From assembly GCA_040902655.1 (NCBI GenBank), contig JBBDWV010000002.1, forward strand, positions 15,008 to 52,482: a stretch of DNA of 37,475 nt, written 5' to 3'. The number at the start of each line of letters is the position of its first letter. Position 1 is the stretch's first letter. The translations under genes were made by a program, and so were the position numbers. This document shows, one piece after another, positions 1 to 35,094 of this stretch. The DNA comes from Mycobacteriales bacterium (GTDB lineage: Bacteria; Actinomycetota; Actinomycetes; Mycobacteriales; SCTD01). The notes beneath the pieces are model-generated. The model was not told the DNA's origin and did not search any database. It saw only the letters and a program-made list of their open reading frames with translations.

Positions 1-123
1 CCACGCGGATCATGGAGGGGGCCGGGGGTGTGCGGGGGGTTGTGGCAGTGGAGTGCCGGTGGTTCGTCCACAGCCTGGCCGCAGGTGCTGTCCGGAACCG
101 GCTGCTGCCGGTGAACTGCGCGG

Positions 124-1123
124 ATGCGCATGGACGAGGCCGCCCGACTGGGTGCTCAGCTCGGCAGCAGCTGCCAGGGCGTGGTGAGCGCGCGTGAGCT
201 GCGCGCGGCAGGTGTCGACCTGAGCGTCGTGCCGCGGCTGGTGGCGGCCGGGACGTGGAGCCGGCTGTGGCGCGGGATGTACCTCGCGCCCTCCCACCCG
301 GCCGGTCCGCTCGTACGGGCCCACGCGGCGGTGAAGCATGCCGATCAGCGGCAGCCGGGCGCGCGTGCTGCGCCCCGCACCGTGCTCACCGGGCTCATGG
401 CCGCGCAGCAGCTGGACATGCGCTGGGTGCCGGCGACGACCGGGTACAGGTCCTGGTGGGTCCGGCCGTTCAGCGACAGTCCAACCCGCAGGTCCTCGTA
501 CGACGAGCAGCAGACGTGTCGGCCATCCCGACCTGGAGCTGGGACGGCTACCCGTCGCCGATCCCGCACGACTGGTGGTCGACGGCGCCCGGGAGTGCCA
601 GTCACTGCGCGACGTACGCGGGCTCGTGCTGGGGGCCGTCGCCGACGGTCACGCCGGAATCCCGGATCTGCTGGCGCTGCTGGATGCAGGCGCCGTGGCC
701 CGCACCGCCTGGGCTCGTCGGGCAGTGCGGGACGCGCAGCGCGGGGCCGCCTCGCCACCTGAGGCAGAGCTGGTCGACGGGCTGATCGGCTGTGGGCATC
801 CCTTCTACGTGAATCCGGAGGTCCGCCTGCACGGCCGCTTCGCCGGCTACCTCGACGTCTATCTGGTCGGCACCGGTGTGGGCGCCGAGATGGACAGCAA
901 GGAGCGGCACGGGGAGCAGGAGCAGCTCGACGACACGCTGGGAAGGCACGAGAGCGCCACCAACGCTGGGCTGTCGTTGGTGCATGTCATACCGACCCGG
1001 TACCGCGCCGATCCGGCCGCCTTCCACGCCCGGCTGTTCGCAGCGGTGTCCGACCGGCGCCTCCGCGGGCTGGGCGAGCCGGCCGGGCTGGAGGTCGTGC
1101 CCCGCGGGCCGCTCCTGCGCTGA
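124..1123 (+). pseudogene. AbiEi-like / DUF559-like protein gene broken by two frameshifts
   Basis: The reading starts at the ATG at 124 (second in-frame Met at 130). The N-terminal ~100 residues look like the winged-helix AbiEi antitoxin N-terminal domain (VVSARELRAAGVDLSVVPRLVAAGTWSRLWRGMY). Similarity then moves to another frame at about 433-440 (VQVLVGPAVQRQSNPQVLVRR) and to a third at about 546-549 (LPVADPARLVVDGARE), which runs to the stop at 1121-1123. The last part carries an endonuclease-like block (YLDVYLVGTGVGAEMDSKERH) of the kind seen in actinobacterial AbiEi_4/DUF559 proteins. Both shifts are equivalent to the loss of one base in a G/C-rich run, so the ancestral product would be about 333 aa. 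A real pseudogene and two sequencing or assembly errors are both possible. The biological role of these proteins is unknown; calling them antitoxins would be an over-reading. Confidence 0.6.
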
Positions 1124-1148
1124 ACCACGAAACGCCCCCCGCCCCGGG

Positions 1149-1211
1149 TGATCCACGCGGACTTTGGGGTGGATTGGTCGACTGAATCCACCTCAGACTT
1201 CGCGTGGATCA
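1149..1211. repeat. 63-bp imperfect palindrome (copy 1)
   Basis: The left arm begins TGATCCACGCG and the right arm ends CGCGTGGATCA. The arms are about 27 nt, pair almost throughout, and are separated by about 9 nt. The element sits between the convergent ends of the broken gene (1123) and glmS (1241), where it could also act as a bidirectional terminator, though there is no T-run. Its ends and length resemble the palindrome at 34539-34602. Confidence 0.75.
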
Positions 1212-1240
1212 GCTGGGAGAAAGGGGGGATCAGCCGGGGG

Positions 1241-3067
1241 CTACTCCACCGTCACCGACTTGGCCAGGTTGCGGGGCTGGTCGACGTCCAGGCCCCGCAG
1301 CCGGGCGATCTCGGCGGACAGGACCTGCAGCGGCACGATGGTGAGCAGCGGCGTGAGCAGCGACTTGGTGTCCGGGACCCGGATGACGTGGGCGGCGTAC
1401 GGCGTCACGCTGTCGTCGCCGTCGGTGGCGAGCACGATCGTACGGGCGCCGCGGGCGCGCACCTCCTGCACGTTGTTGACCAGCTTGGCCTGCAGCGCGT
1501 GCCGGGGCGCGATCACGACGACCGGCGTGCCCTGCTCGACCAGCGCGATCGGCCCGTGCTTGATCTCGCCCGCCGGAAACCCCTCGGCGCTGACGTAGGC
1601 CAGCTCCTTGAGCTTGAGTGCGCCCTCGAGCGCCATCGGGTAGCCGACGTGCCGGCCGAGGAAGAGCACCCGCGGCTCGTGCGCGATCTCGCCGGCCAGC
1701 TCGCGGACGCCGTCCATCCTGGCGAGCACCTCGACAACGAGGTCCGGGATCTCCTGCAGGTCGCGCAGGTGCGCGCGCACCTCGTCAGGGTCGCGGGTGC
1801 CGCGGAGCTGGGCGAGGTAGAGCCCGACGACGTACATCGCGGTGATCTGCGTCATCACCGCCTTGGTCGAGGCGACCGCCACCTCCGGACCGCCGCGGGT
1901 GTAGAAGGCGGCGTCGCTCTCGCGCGAGATGGTCGAGCCGATGGTGTTGGTGACCGCGAGGACCCAGGCGCGCTGGGAGCGCGCGTGCCGCAGCGCCTCG
2001 AGCGTGTCCGCGGTCTCGCCGCTCTGGCTGATGGCGATGACGAGGGTGCTGCGCCCGACCACCGGGTCGCGGTAGCGGAACTCCGATGCCAGCTCGACGT
2101 GGACGGGCAGCCGGCACCAGCGCTCGATGGCGTACTTGCCGACCATCCCCGAGTGGTAGGACGACCCGCACGCGATGATCACGACCTGCTCGAGGCCTCG
2201 CACGTCCTCGTCGCTCATCGCGAGCTCGTCCAGGTGCAGCAGTCCCTCGGCGGTCAGCCGTCCGCCGAGGGTGTCGCGGATCGCGCCGGGCTGCTCGTCG
2301 ATCTCCTTGAGCATGAAGAACTCGTAGCCACCCTTCTCGGCGGCGTCGGTGTCCCAGTCGACGTGGTAGCTCTCGCCCTGGACGACCGTGCCGTCGAAGT
2401 CGGTCACCGTGACGCCGTCGCGACGCACCTGCACGACCTGGTCCTGCTCGACCGCACGCGCCTGCCGGGTGTGCGCGATGAAGGCCGTCACGTCGGAGCC
2501 GACGAAGTTCTCCCCCTCGCCCAGGCCGATGACCAGCGGCAGGTTGCGCCGGGCGGCGACGATCAGGTCGGGCTCGTCCCGGTGGCTGACGACCAGGACG
2601 AAAGACCCCTCGAGGTCCTTGCAGATGGAGCGCACGGTCGCCGCCAGGTCACCGTCGTACCGCTCTTCGACGAGGTGGGCGACGACCTCGGTGTCGGTGT
2701 CGGAGCGGCGCTCGTGGCCACGCTCCTCGAGACCCTGGACCAGGCGCTCGAAGTTCTCGATGGTGCCGTTGTGCACCACTGCGACGGCACCGGCGCAGTC
2801 GACCTGCGGGTGGGCGTTGGCGTCGGTGGGCGGGCCGTGGGTGGCCCAGCGGGTGTGACCGATGCCGAGGGTGCCGGGGAGGTCACGCTCGGCCAGCTCC
2901 TTCTCGAGGTTGGCGAGCTTGCCCGCCTTGCGCTCGACCTGTAGCGCGCCGCCGTCGAGGATGGCGACGCCGGCGCTGTCGTAGCCGCGGTACTCCAGCC
3001 GCCGCAGGCCGTCGAGCACGACCTCGAGCGCCGACCTGCCCCCGACGTAACCCACGATGCCGCACAT
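1241..3067 (-). CDS. glmS: Glutamine--fructose-6-phosphate aminotransferase (isomerizing)
   Basis: Makes glucosamine-6-phosphate from fructose-6-phosphate and glutamine, the first step toward UDP-GlcNAc for peptidoglycan; cytosolic. The 608-aa product has the family's usual length. It starts MCGIVGYVGG, so Cys2 becomes the N-terminal nucleophile after Met removal. The glutaminase domain (about 1-220) shows HTRWATHG, HNGTIEN and SDTDTEV. Two SIS sugar-isomerase domains follow (SQSGETADTLEA; ACGSSYHSG), and the end PRNLAKSVTVE is typical. An upstream in-frame start would place residues before the catalytic Cys, so 3067 is the start. No Shine-Dalgarno is visible; a TAGCCT box (3080-3075) ends 7 nt before the ATG, suggesting a leaderless mRNA. 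GlmM, the next pathway enzyme, is encoded at 7026-8354. Confidence 0.97.
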   Translation of the reverse strand: MCGIVGYVGGRSALEVVLDGLRRLEYRGYDSAGVAILDGGALQVERKAGKLANLEKELAERDLPGTLGIGHTRWATHGPPTDANAHPQVDCAGAVAVVHNGTIENFERLVQGLEERGHERRSDTDTEVVAHLVEERYDGDLAATVRSICKDLEGSFVLVVSHRDEPDLIVAARRNLPLVIGLGEGENFVGSDVTAFIAHTRQARAVEQDQVVQVRRDGVTVTDFDGTVVQGESYHVDWDTDAAEKGGYEFFMLKEIDEQPGAIRDTLGGRLTAEGLLHLDELAMSDEDVRGLEQVVIIACGSSYHSGMVGKYAIERWCRLPVHVELASEFRYRDPVVGRSTLVIAISQSGETADTLEALRHARSQRAWVLAVTNTIGSTISRESDAAFYTRGGPEVAVASTKAVMTQITAMYVVGLYLAQLRGTRDPDEVRAHLRDLQEIPDLVVEVLARMDGVRELAGEIAHEPRVLFLGRHVGYPMALEGALKLKELAYVSAEGFPAGEIKHGPIALVEQGTPVVVIAPRHALQAKLVNNVQEVRARGARTIVLATDGDDSVTPYAAHVIRVPDTKSLLTPLLTIVPLQVLSAEIARLRGLDVDQPRNLAKSVTVE

Positions 3068-3166
3068 GGCGCTGAGGCTAGCCGCCGCCCCGTGGTGTAC
3101 CGCGTGGTTGGCCGGGTGGTCGCGGGGCAGGAGCCGATTCAGTCCACATCGCCCCCGGGAGGTCCC

Positions 3167-3334
3167 GTGTCGCACCCGCTCCGAACCCTGTTCGCCGCGC
3201 TCGCCGTCTCCACCGCCCTGTTCGGCTGCAGCGCCTCCGGTGAGGTCGAGACGGACCGCCAGGACAACGAGCGCGACGGTGGTGGCGGTGGCGTCGAACT
3301 GCCGGACGTCGAGGGCAGCGTCGGCAGCGGCTGA
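3167..3334 (+). CDS. Small secreted lipoprotein, function unknown
   Basis: A 55-aa product beginning at GTG 3167, with a good ribosome-binding site (GGGAGG) six nt upstream. Residues 1-20 form a short basic then hydrophobic signal peptide ending in a lipobox (LFGC), so the mature protein would be anchored by a lipidated Cys. The mature part (about 36 aa) is acidic and Gly-rich (DRQDNERDGGGGGVELPDVEG), too short for a folded enzyme. It is divergent from glmS. I do not recognise a family. The GTG with its ribosome-binding site is preferred over an in-frame upstream ATG at 3092, which would bury the signal peptide. Confidence 0.6.
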   Translation: MSHPLRTLFAALAVSTALFGCSASGEVETDRQDNERDGGGGGVELPDVEGSVGSG

Positions 3335-32738: not shown

Positions 32739-33112
32739 TAGCTCTTCTCCTTCTTCGCGCCGTATCGGCTGCGCGCCTGCTTGCGGTTGCGGACCCCCTG
32801 GGTGTCGAGCGAACCACGGATGATCTTGTAGCGGACGCCGGGCAGGTCCTTCACGCGACCGCCGCGGACGAGCACGATGGAGTGCTCCTGCAGGTTGTGG
32901 CCCACGCCGGGGATGTAGGCCGTCACCTCGATGCCGCTGGTCAAGCGCACGCGGGCGACCTTGCGGAGCGCGGAGTTCGGCTTCTTCGGCGTGGTGGTGT
33001 AGACGCGCGTGCAGACGCCACGACGCTGCGGGCTCCCCTTGAGGGCCGGCGTGTTGGTCTTCTCGACCTTGTCCTGCCGGCCCTTGCGGACCAGCTGCTG
33101 GATCGTGGGCAA
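32738..33112 (-). CDS. rpsL: 30S ribosomal protein S12
   Basis: A 124-aa S12 at the decoding centre. [55 protein letters not shown] is standard. Lys43 (TPKKPNS) and Lys88 (GRVKDLPG) are the wild-type residues, so no streptomycin-resistance substitution is present. First gene of the str operon, with promoter at 33334-33362 and a ~215-nt leader that contains the shared 21-nt element. Confidence 0.99.
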
Positions 33113-33172
33113 AGCGTCTCCTGCTCGTCCTTCTGGGAGTGGGACCGTGCCGTTCTGTGTCGGGGCCGCCCA

Positions 33173-33193
33173 CCCACGCGGTCGGGTGTGTCA
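33173..33193 (-). promoter_or_regulatory. Shared ribosomal-leader element, rpsL copy
   Basis: Identical over 21 nt to 28668-28688 (minus strand TGACACACCCGACCGCGTGG plus one G), 61 nt upstream of rpsL and about 135 nt downstream of the likely transcription start, so it would be in the mRNA leader. Confidence 0.75.
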
Positions 33194-33333
33194 CCCGGTC
33201 GCTCCCTGCCCGCGTGCACGTCGTACGGGGAGGTGGTGCGGAGTCCTGCTGGTTTCTGCTCGTCCTCGCGCGGCCCGGAAGTGTCGGCCGGAGGGCGCGC
33301 GGGCGGCCTGGGTCGCCCCAGGCACAAGAGGGA

Positions 33334-33362
33334 ACAGTACCTGCCGCCCGTACGAGGGTCAA
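33334..33362 (-). promoter_or_regulatory. str operon (rpsL) promoter
   Basis: On the minus strand, -35 TTGACC (33362-33357), a 17-nt spacer and -10 TACTGT (33339-33334). Near-consensus for the housekeeping sigma factor; leader about 215 nt. Confidence 0.75.
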
Positions 33363-33436
33363 AAGCGGGGCGCCGGGCAGCCCCGCTGTCGCGCCGACAC
33401 GCCGACCGGAGCGCAGAGATGTGACGCAGGCCACCC

Positions 33437-33465
33437 TTGCGGTCAGCTGTTACTCGCGGTAACAC
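33437..33465 (+). promoter_or_regulatory. Promoter with TetR-like operator
   Basis: -35 TTGCGG (33437-33442), 17-nt spacer, -10 TAACAC (33460-33465). The perfect inverted repeat TGTTAC-TCGCG-GTAACA (33448-33464) fills the spacer and overlaps the -10. The TTAC(N5)GTAA form resembles TetR-family operators. No TetR gene is in the window. Confidence 0.6.
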
Positions 33466-33503
33466 TAGCTCCGACGCACTCCTGCGCCGCCTTCGGAGGC
33501 CCG

Positions 33504-34514
33504 ATGTCCACGCTCAGCACCGACTCCCACCGTCCGGCTTTCGACCGGCTCACCGCCCCCGCCGCGGCGACGCCGGCTGGTGGCCGCTTCCCGTGGCTGA
33601 TCACCCTCACGCACACCTGGATCCTGGTCGGGCTGTTCCTCGACGGCTGGTTCCACAGCCACGGCCCGGAACTCGAGAACTTCTTCACCCCCTGGCACGG
33701 CGTCCTGTACAGCGGCGTGGCGGCCACCGTCGCGGTGCACCTGCAGCACCAGCGACGGCACGGGATCCCTCCCGGCTACGCGCCGAGTCTGGCCGCCGGG
33801 GTCGTCGTGCTGCTCGCCGGCGTCGTCGACGGCGTCTGGCACACCGTCTTCGGCGTCGAGGCCGACCTCGACGCGCTGCTGTCCCCTCCGCACCTCCTTC
33901 TCATCACTGCCGGCACACTGGTCTTCGCGGGCCCCCTGCGGGCGGCCCTGCGAGCACCCGCAGGCGCCCCCGGCGGGCTGCCGACCGCCTTCGCCGCGGC
34001 GTACGTCCTGGCCGGTCTCGGCTTCTTCACGCAGTACGCGAACCCGTTCACCGAGCTGTACCCGGTCGTGTCGCAGGCCGCCGGCGCCATGGAGGTCCGG
34101 GAGCTCCGCGAGGTGGCCGGCGTGGCGGGCGCAGTGCTGTGGGCGGTTTTGGTCGCCGCCGCGGTGGCCCTGCTGAGGGCGCGCACGACCCTGGTCCGCG
34201 GCGCGCTCGCGGTCGTCGTGGGCGTGCCGTCGCTGTTCATGGTCACCCAGGACGGCCAGTACCTGTTCGTTCCGGCCATCCTGCTCGCCGCGGCGGTGAC
34301 GGAGCTCGGCGGCCGGCGGCTGTCGCCGGCGCTCGCCGCGCTGCTGGCGACCACGGCACTCACCGCCGGCTGGGTCCTGACCCTGCTGGCCACCCGCGAC
34401 CTGGCCTGGAGCCGGGAACTGCTGACGGGCAGCATCGGCTCGGCCGCTGCGGCGGGCTACCTGACCGGCTGGCTGGTGAGCAACGGAGGCACCCGGGCGG
34501 ACGCGGCCGGCTGA
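33504..34514 (+). CDS. Multipass membrane protein with conserved-looking His/Asp/Trp motifs, unknown function
   Basis: A 336-aa integral membrane protein from ATG 33504 with GGAGG upstream; the open frame extends to 33009 but upstream residues are shadows of the rpsL leader. After a ~30-aa soluble N-terminus there are roughly nine hydrophobic segments. The first four carry polar residues that look like a metal or heme/quinone site: HTWILVGLFLDGWFHSH (about 37-53), TPWHG (about 62-66), VDGVWHTVFGVE (about 108-119) and SPPH (127-130). I do not recognise the family with confidence; a distant relation to copper/heme membrane proteins is only a guess. It stands alone between rpsL and the rpoC side, under its own repressor-type promoter. 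Confidence 0.85.
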   Translation: MSTLSTDSHRPAFDRLTAPAAATPAGGRFPWLITLTHTWILVGLFLDGWFHSHGPELENFFTPWHGVLYSGVAATVAVHLQHQRRHGIPPGYAPSLAAGVVVLLAGVVDGVWHTVFGVEADLDALLSPPHLLLITAGTLVFAGPLRAALRAPAGAPGGLPTAFAAAYVLAGLGFFTQYANPFTELYPVVSQAAGAMEVRELREVAGVAGAVLWAVLVAAAVALLRARTTLVRGALAVVVGVPSLFMVTQDGQYLFVPAILLAAAVTELGGRRLSPALAALLATTALTAGWVLTLLATRDLAWSRELLTGSIGSAAAAGYLTGWLVSNGGTRADAAG

Positions 34515-34538
34515 CGGCGCTGCACCGCCCGCCTCCGC

Positions 34539-34602
34539 TGATCAACGCCGGACGTGGGCACTTCTGCGCCGGGCAAGAAGCGGGGAAGCCCGGCGTTGAT
34601 CA
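34539..34602. repeat. 64-bp palindrome (copy 2)
   Basis: Outer arms TGATCAACGCCGG and CCGGCGTTGATCA match perfectly over 13 bp; an inner CTTCT/AGAAG pair continues the symmetry. It lies in the 145-nt gap between convergent genes. Ends, length and arm sequence (TGATCnACGCnGGAC) resemble the element at 1149-1211. Confidence 0.8.
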
Positions 34603-34659
34603 TAGCGGCGGCGTGAGAGAGCGCAGCCGGGTCGTCCCCACCGGCCTGCGGCGCGCGGG

Positions 34660-35094
34660 CTACAGGCCGAGCAGGCCGATCGGTAGCAGGAACAGACCGA
34701 ACAGCAGCAGCAGGAACAGGCTGACCAGCACCAGGTGGACCACCGCCAGCACGACCGCCCAGGTGCACAGGTCGAGCCCCGTCTTCGTGCCGCCGCTGGC
34801 CAGGATGTCGCGGCGGGCCAGGCGCGCGAGCACGAGGGCGGCGATGGCTCCCAGGAACGGGATCGTCGGCGTGTAGGCCGCGATCGCCAGACCGAGCGCG
34901 ATCATCGCCTTGACCTCGGTCTGCGGCGCACCCTGCCAGCCGCCGGAGGGCGACACCTGTCCCGGCTGCGGCGGTGGGCCCCAGCCCGGCGGCGACCCCT
35001 GGCCGTACGTCGGCTGGCCGTAGGAACCGTGGCCGTACGCCGGCTGGCCTGCGGGTGGCGCCGGCCGGTCGAACGGGTTCTCGGGCGCGCTCAT
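34660..35094 (-). CDS. DUF4190-like membrane protein
   Basis: A 144-aa protein. Residues 1-60 are Pro/Gly/Tyr/Gln-rich with loose repeats (YGHGSYGQPTYGQGS), probably cytoplasmic and disordered. Two hydrophobic segments follow (about 64-90 and 108-140), with LARLARRDILASGGTKTGL between them, the layout of DUF4190 proteins. Function unknown; such proteins are frequent in actinobacteria. A TACCCT box (35106-35101) ends 6 nt before the ATG, suggesting leaderless transcription. It lies directly downstream of rpoC, behind that gene's terminator hairpin. Confidence 0.8.
   Translation of the reverse strand: MSAPENPFDRPAPPAGQPAYGHGSYGQPTYGQGSPPGWGPPPQPGQVSPSGGWQGAPQTEVKAMIALGLAIAAYTPTIPFLGAIAALVLARLARRDILASGGTKTGLDLCTWAVVLAVVHLVLVSLFLLLLFGLFLLPIGLLGL

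Follow-up and report, generated by a model that had tools for sequence, protein, structure and literature searches.

Dispersed palindromes bracket a predicted AbiEi- and Vsr-like nuclease gene in Actinomycetes, suggestive of a REPtron-like system

The closest described counterparts of the elements reported here are the REP/RAYT systems (REPtrons), in which the repeats are 20 to 40 bp long and tagged with GTAG or CGTC (PMC3733652), and in which the RAYT gene is flanked by REP copies with gene and repeat co-diverging (PMC2817692; PMC8266576). The spread of short palindromes through bacterial genomes is described as poorly understood even for REPs (PMC8266576). Rickettsia palindromic elements (RPEs) are ~150 bp long and occur at high frequency within genes, and passages describing them mention no cognate nuclease (PMC10969869). 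The system analysed here shares with REPtrons the presence of dispersed extragenic palindromes (62 copies, 61 of them outside called genes), a gene placed between two copies, and co-divergence of gene and repeat. It differs from them in that no PF01797 gene was found in the genome (designated G000), in that the associated gene product has a predicted fold of the Vsr/EDxHD rather than the HuH type, and in that the elements are ~57 to 77 bp long, those of G000 measuring 63 or 64 bp with TGATC ends and no GTAG/CGTC tag. Because enzyme and end tags differ, it is not a REP/RAYT system by membership, though REPtron-like in layout. As in Rickettsia, a palindromic element lies in frame inside a protein gene (here dnaE2), but the in-gene share is only 1 of 62. 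A search limited to a library of open-access literature found no report linking such a gene to such palindromes.

The window, that is the whole stretch of DNA analysed, covers 37,475 bp (G000:C2:15008-52482) of a genome of 3.56 Mb in 62 contigs. Its relevant features are as follows.

1..12, no strand: probable right end of the left bracketing palindrome, judged from its end motif
124..1123, plus strand: broken cognate nuclease gene, with AbiEi-like N-terminus and nuclease C-terminus
1149..1211, no strand: family-B palindromic element of 63 bp (copy 1 of the window), bracketing the broken nuclease gene on its right
1241..3175, minus strand: glmS-type gene, right neighbour of copy 1, with SIS and glutamine amidotransferase domains
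33009..34514, plus strand: gene to the left of copy 2; Pfam search at E 0.01 negative
34539..34602, no strand: family-A palindromic element of 64 bp (copy 2 of the window), in a convergent gap
34660..35094, minus strand: small gene to the right of copy 2; Pfam search at E 0.01 negative

Copy 1 reads TGATCCACGCG...CGCGTGGATCA, with inverted arms of 33 nt that match at 82 % and, in a repeat search, extend slightly past 1149-1211; copy 2 reads TGATCAACGCC...GGCGTTGATCA. Exact TGATCNACGC occurs at only four places in the window, the ends of these two copies. The initial annotation had described a 63-bp palindrome at the first site and a related one at the second, both of which were confirmed by direct reading (63 and 64 bp). 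The internal pattern that it took them to share holds in part: end motif, size and layout are common to both, but the interiors belong to two different families and the agreement lies mainly in the outer ~10 bp. Both copies do occupy convergent gaps, as had been stated, but the gene to the left of copy 1 is broken: its segments 124-432, 438-548 and 554-1117 each match the intact relative L292 in a frame of their own. An Rfam search of the window returned no matches.

The remainder of the probable left palindrome bracketing the broken gene would lie beyond a 100-N gap directly before the window, with its left end at ~G000:C2:14895. The 100 N, seen at L171:1896-2020 (G000:C2, before window position 1), split this apparent palindrome, and hairpins of such a type may therefore break assemblies. 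In G089, too, an element (L250:1189-1251) adjoins glmS and a relative of the nuclease gene, though there it lies at the 5' ends of the two genes and not, as in the window, at the 3' ends. At the site of copy 2, seven relatives have coding-like sequence and no inverted repeat above the set threshold; read by eye, this sequence is what we take to be a glycosylase-type gene. Over window positions 34480-34660, G000 has the palindrome alone between the flanking genes, the relatives' presumed glycosylase-type gene being absent (by eye), and in G103 that gene also appears decayed (by eye).

The initial annotation further proposed a dispersed REP-like or miniature family, and the genome agrees with this. 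The pattern TGATCNACGCN{28,56}GCGTNGATCA occurs at 47 places in G000 as against 0 for the reversed control, so that the outcome in which only two loci carry it did not occur. A single-end search with reading of 15 unpaired ends added 15 imperfect copies (one of which, L159, has lost its right end), giving the total of 62, patchy among congeners as described below. These form two related families, 38 copies of family A with TGATCAACGCCG ends and 24 of family B with TGATCCACGCG ends. Element length is almost fixed, the 47 strict copies comprising 31 A of 64 bp, two A of 63 bp and 14 B of 63 bp, and the copies are far from identical, with mean pairwise identities of 0.71 (32 distinct 64-bp A copies) and 0.75 (24 B copies). 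End positions are invariant, in part because the search pattern imposes this, and the interior fits the family consensus. Elsewhere, the strict pattern was found in nine of 397 genomes of the order and as 62 stretches in a collection of 84,980 named genomes, mainly 'Frankiales' and other actinobacterial metagenome genomes with three Blastococcus records; we take scattered single places in unrelated taxa to be chance.

Six near-identical A copies (L020, L026, L027, L029, L035 and L037), which at first resembled a bigger mobile unit, lie within a larger dispersed repeat of ~150 to 700 bp. Beside several copies the end motifs recur in tandem with some flank, and 9 of 20 end-motif matches outside elements fall within 150 bp of one, where ~1 is expected (two of the nine overlap an element edge). 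Tandem repeats of this kind at L168:965-1102, L030:2970-3150, L016:2933-3100, L029:8598-8760, L160 and L166 have units of ~13 to 35 bp, occur on one side or both and invariably point inwards, as repair at the element ends might produce.

Pairing between the arms was compared with shuffles in alignment A1 (31 of 38 A copies; five near-identical ones, L159 and L164 excluded) and alignment A2 (24 of 24 B copies). Paired cells made up 79.4 versus 77.5 % in family A and 86.1 versus 84.1 % in family B, and the covariation score was equalled by 9 of 500 and 0 of 500 shuffles, respectively. These values suit a duplex site composed of two inverted halves no less well than a folded RNA, and some selection or repair between the arms is possible. 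By our own codon-based gene calls, the 62 copies occupy 25 convergent, 27 same-direction and seven divergent gaps, two contig edges and one gene, at a median of 51 bp from the nearest upstream stop codon (55 values, including the in-gene copy). Convergent gaps are over-used, since they hold 25 of 62 copies but make up only 5 of the window's 47 gaps (38 same-direction, 4 divergent). This gene-end placement, the strong predicted RNA hairpins (median MFE -32.9 kcal/mol) and the weak excess of arm covariation over shuffles would suit bidirectional terminators or mRNA-protecting hairpins, converged or copied and unrelated to the nuclease gene. We consider such an origin improbable. A T-tract (5 or more T in 8 nt) lies beside 0 of 124 element sides, which is in line with the initial view that these are not ordinary terminators, though they may have some terminator function; length is nearly fixed, the end sequence common and the interior on a family consensus; and matched copies surround one gene family in many actinobacterial families, the bracketing statistic given below opposing terminators as the whole story. 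No Rho-independent terminator was found at window positions 900-1400. The idea that elements sit in the loops of older terminators was likewise rejected, as flank pairing did not exceed that of shuffled partners (z 0.4, 46 distinct flank pairs).

One family-B element (L169:958-1020) lies in frame within a DNA polymerase III alpha-type gene that we take to be dnaE2. Among nine genomes of the genus, the corresponding loop carries a family-B element in G000, G124, G023 and G075 and lacks it in G103, G155, G143 and G068, with only a later part of the gene found in G089. The insert translates as DPR...VDH, with VDH in 4 of 4 carriers. In other genera (compared without G173 and G053) the element was absent from the 11 genomes for which the loop was read, and two more were not found by motif. 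The best sign of insertion or loss is this presence and absence among congeners. A comparison of occupied sites between congeners, covering 60 loci of relatives, identified eight sites besides dnaE2 where an element lies between one and the same pair of genes in G000 and in a relative. These shared gaps count against a reading in terms of spread, because conserved site function would give the same result. One gap defined by both flanking genes holds family A in G000 (L044:3001-3064) and family B in G124 (L242:1501-1563), making shared flanking genes alone an ambiguous sign of age. At the shared sites L248, L250 and L252 of G089, compared with L030, L053 and L028 of G000, the outer arms read CGTG...CACG versus CGCG...CGCG; such species-wise differences suggest concerted change or repeated arrival.

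A REP-associated tyrosine transposase, for which the initial annotation proposed a search, was not found: PF01797 has 0 matches in G000 (5 of 14 control genomes match), and a different gene sits between the palindromes. An intact copy of this gene lies on contig C11 of G000 between two family-A copies, with the same arrangement in G124, and family B adjoins the window's broken gene; family A would thus belong to the C11 gene and family B to the broken one. A search of 24 genomes of the family with the C11-type protein recovered the gene in 14. Element models and direct comparison of left and right flanks revealed matched palindrome pairs around the gene, the sequence of which differs in most genomes:

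TGATCAACGCC: bracketing palindrome in G000, G124, G149 and G161
TGATCCACGGAACC: bracketing palindrome in G137
ACAACGGAACC: bracketing palindrome in G167
GGATTGGGTGG: bracketing palindrome in G009
GATGAGGGGTACC: bracketing palindrome in G173

Bracketing was scored on 500-bp flanks at E<=1e-4 over 30 bp or more. Within the family, 17 of 21 fetched loci were entered (L303, L306, L307 and L308, broken or second pieces, were excluded) and L292 was dropped as its contig ends. Bracketing was found in 13 of the 16 testable loci, the exceptions being L302, L304 and L305, and a model scan placed one palindrome beside each of L302, L304 and L292. Among control windows, bracketing was found in 12 of 721: 2 of 195 obtained by sliding along G000, and 10 of 526 from other loci, a number of them element loci themselves. 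For pooled gene loci versus controls the difference is strong (Fisher p 2e-38), and the association between gene and palindrome is itself near certain. Other genes, too, can by chance come to lie between two elements, as L028:3139-4791 does, with a B copy on one side and an A copy on the other.

Divergence of the gene is correlated with that of the palindrome. Protein identity is correlated with similarity of the palindromes' outer 22 nt (Mantel r 0.58, p 4e-4, 14 loci), and palindrome types group on the protein tree: the TGATCAACGCC genes fall together, and the broken gene of the window is placed with the G089 gene of TGATCCACGTG type. Since the broken gene falls with the latter and apart from the TGATCAACGCC genes, G000 has two genes for its two families. 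At least 10 matches to the two element models (both strands) were obtained in 8 of 14 gene-bearing genomes of the family versus 1 of 10 without the gene (G096), counts that lean towards the G000 type because both models were built from G000 copies. G075 and G096 have many copies but yielded no gene cognate to family A or B (their assemblies are 87 % and 84 % complete), which counts against the gene as the source of dispersal; the single nuclease gene found in G075 is bracketed by a different palindrome.

Beyond the family, a profile of 14 proteins, applied at E<=1e-20 to 394 genomes of the class, found matches in 135. Among the 29 best-scoring loci from other families, 20 of 28 testable ones are bracketed, often in inverted orientation (L333, L334, L335, L342, L350, L353, L354 and L359 are not; L352 fell outside the rule). 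A stricter palindrome score flagged only 5 of 29 of these repeat pairs because it takes into account just the terminal 14 nt of each aligned segment; several further pairs are visibly hairpin-like and the remainder are matched repeats only. In a prospective test, the palindrome of the G009 gene gave 34 matches in its own genome, including 19 places of 57 bp or more (the two brackets among them); each of 16 other genomes yielded no match or a single one of no more than 32 bp. The 200-kb samples were drawn close to the gene but excluded it, and in them the bracketing repeat occurs at six places in G028, four in G637, one in G440 and none in G423, and 11 palindromes had no matches in foreign-genome samples. 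Overall, four of five genomes tested hold further copies elsewhere (1 to 17). In G028, a member of another family, the repeat that brackets the gene at L331 is a AAGGAAGGGCCCCTTCTTAACG-type palindrome, its six further places lying in samples L362 and L364-L366. The unbracketed loci (3 of 16 and 8 of 28) and, among the four sampled genomes, the one without a further copy and the one with a single copy count against a gene that spreads its own palindromes.

Like MITEs, the elements are short, dispersed and have terminal inverted repeats; by eye, no clear target-site duplication was evident in the flanks of 47 copies and of the dnaE2 copies, the copies being old, and the PF01797 search found no parent transposase. 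They might nevertheless be miniature elements of an undetected IS transposase with the nuclease gene as cargo or chance neighbour, for which their MITE-like size and terminal repeats speak, and the transposase search covered PF01797 only. We find this very improbable, as the palindromes around the nuclease gene differ across many genera and no gene family notably recurs beside the elements (at most three members per family among 116 flanking proteins).

At its N-terminus the protein matches PF13338 (AbiEi) in 6 of 10 sequences at E<=1, four of them above the cut-off, and with E<=0.1 as the limit all 5 of 5 proteins match PADLOC AbiEi models. The C-terminus matches PF18741 only weakly, in 2 of 10 (E 0.06 and 0.27, below its cut-off); Pfam does not bear out 'DUF559' as a label for the gene, the structural match being to the Vsr-like group. 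Sequence searches yielded a single unconvincing PDB relative (E 0.59), 0 of 5 proteins with a PHROGs match and no meaningful NCBIfam match in 10 proteins. A structure predicted from four sequences (mean pLDDT 73.8) matches the NGO0050 endonuclease-like protein (3hrl, Z 10.4), the I-Bth0305I catalytic domain (3r3p, Z 10.2) and Vsr (1vsr, Z 7.5, in the range the tool calls middling), and the top Foldseek match is an AbiEi antitoxin at E 2.8e-3, with none below 0.001. The gene product is thus predicted to consist of a winged-helix N-terminus resembling AbiEi, fused to a nuclease domain of Vsr/EDxHD fold at the C-terminus. In alignment A4, E204, D235, S249 and H253 are invariant and E246 nearly so; E204, D235, E246 and H253 would suit a candidate active site of the Vsr/EDxHD type. 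The predicted catalytic-domain fold is that of Vsr and of EDxHD homing endonucleases such as I-Bth0305I, and the long target would fit dimer binding, but the protein has an AbiEi-like DNA-binding part and its gene lies between genome-recurrent palindromes instead of in an intron or at a single homing site. With the AbiEi antitoxins of type IV toxin-antitoxin systems it shares the N-terminal domain, but a nuclease domain is joined on, and at the one locus considered (C11 of G000) the neighbours are ParB and D-Ala-D-Ala ligase (Ddl) rather than an AbiEii toxin. The target of AbiEi consists of two 23-bp inverted repeats with a 3-bp spacer (PMC7319586), and that of the EDxHD enzyme I-Bth0305I, which dimerises on it, spans nearly 60 bp (PMC3943268), so that a dimer on the ~60-bp palindrome would be a natural picture.

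The AbiEi-like N-terminus also underlies the main rival explanation, namely a domesticated host factor (a repressor, roadblock terminator or repeat-cleaving guard) with the palindromes as its binding sites at gene ends and the brackets as autoregulatory sites. AbiEi relatives bind inverted repeats in their own promoters (PMC7319586), and both the position of the elements shortly past stop codons and the eight gaps occupied in G000 and a relative would be expected of such a factor. We regard it as unlikely, if still worth serious consideration, as copies on both sides of the gene, species-specific families, presence and absence among congeners and the in-frame dnaE2 copy fit spread better.

Our preferred reading, to which we assign a probability of roughly two in three, is a REPtron-like selfish system built on an unrelated nuclease, in which the gene spreads its own palindromes. 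The palindromes would be the non-autonomous dispersed part and one gene between two palindrome copies the autonomous form. Most likely, two protein molecules would bind the two inverted halves of the ~60-bp palindrome; the nuclease would cut at or beside it, and repair or strand transfer would copy the palindrome to new places. Copies past gene ends would survive because they do least harm there, and each gene lineage would read its own palindrome, leading gene and palindrome to diverge together. Family B may no longer be moving, since its gene in the window is broken. A fuller version, to which we give slightly better than even odds, is that of a mobile element across the class Actinomycetes, a palindrome-bracketed, AbiEi-headed nuclease of Vsr/EDxHD fold that evolved independently of the HuH transposases and cuts its palindrome as a dimer in the manner of a homing endonuclease.

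Under this selfish-system reading, a second, unrelated enzyme family would stand in the place of RAYT, and a common, unexplained actinobacterial gene group (135 of 394 class genomes) would gain a candidate substrate, each gene's own palindrome. Forms of dnaE2 with and without the insert are available among congeners, and species-specific repeats of this kind matter for assembly, typing and terminator prediction.
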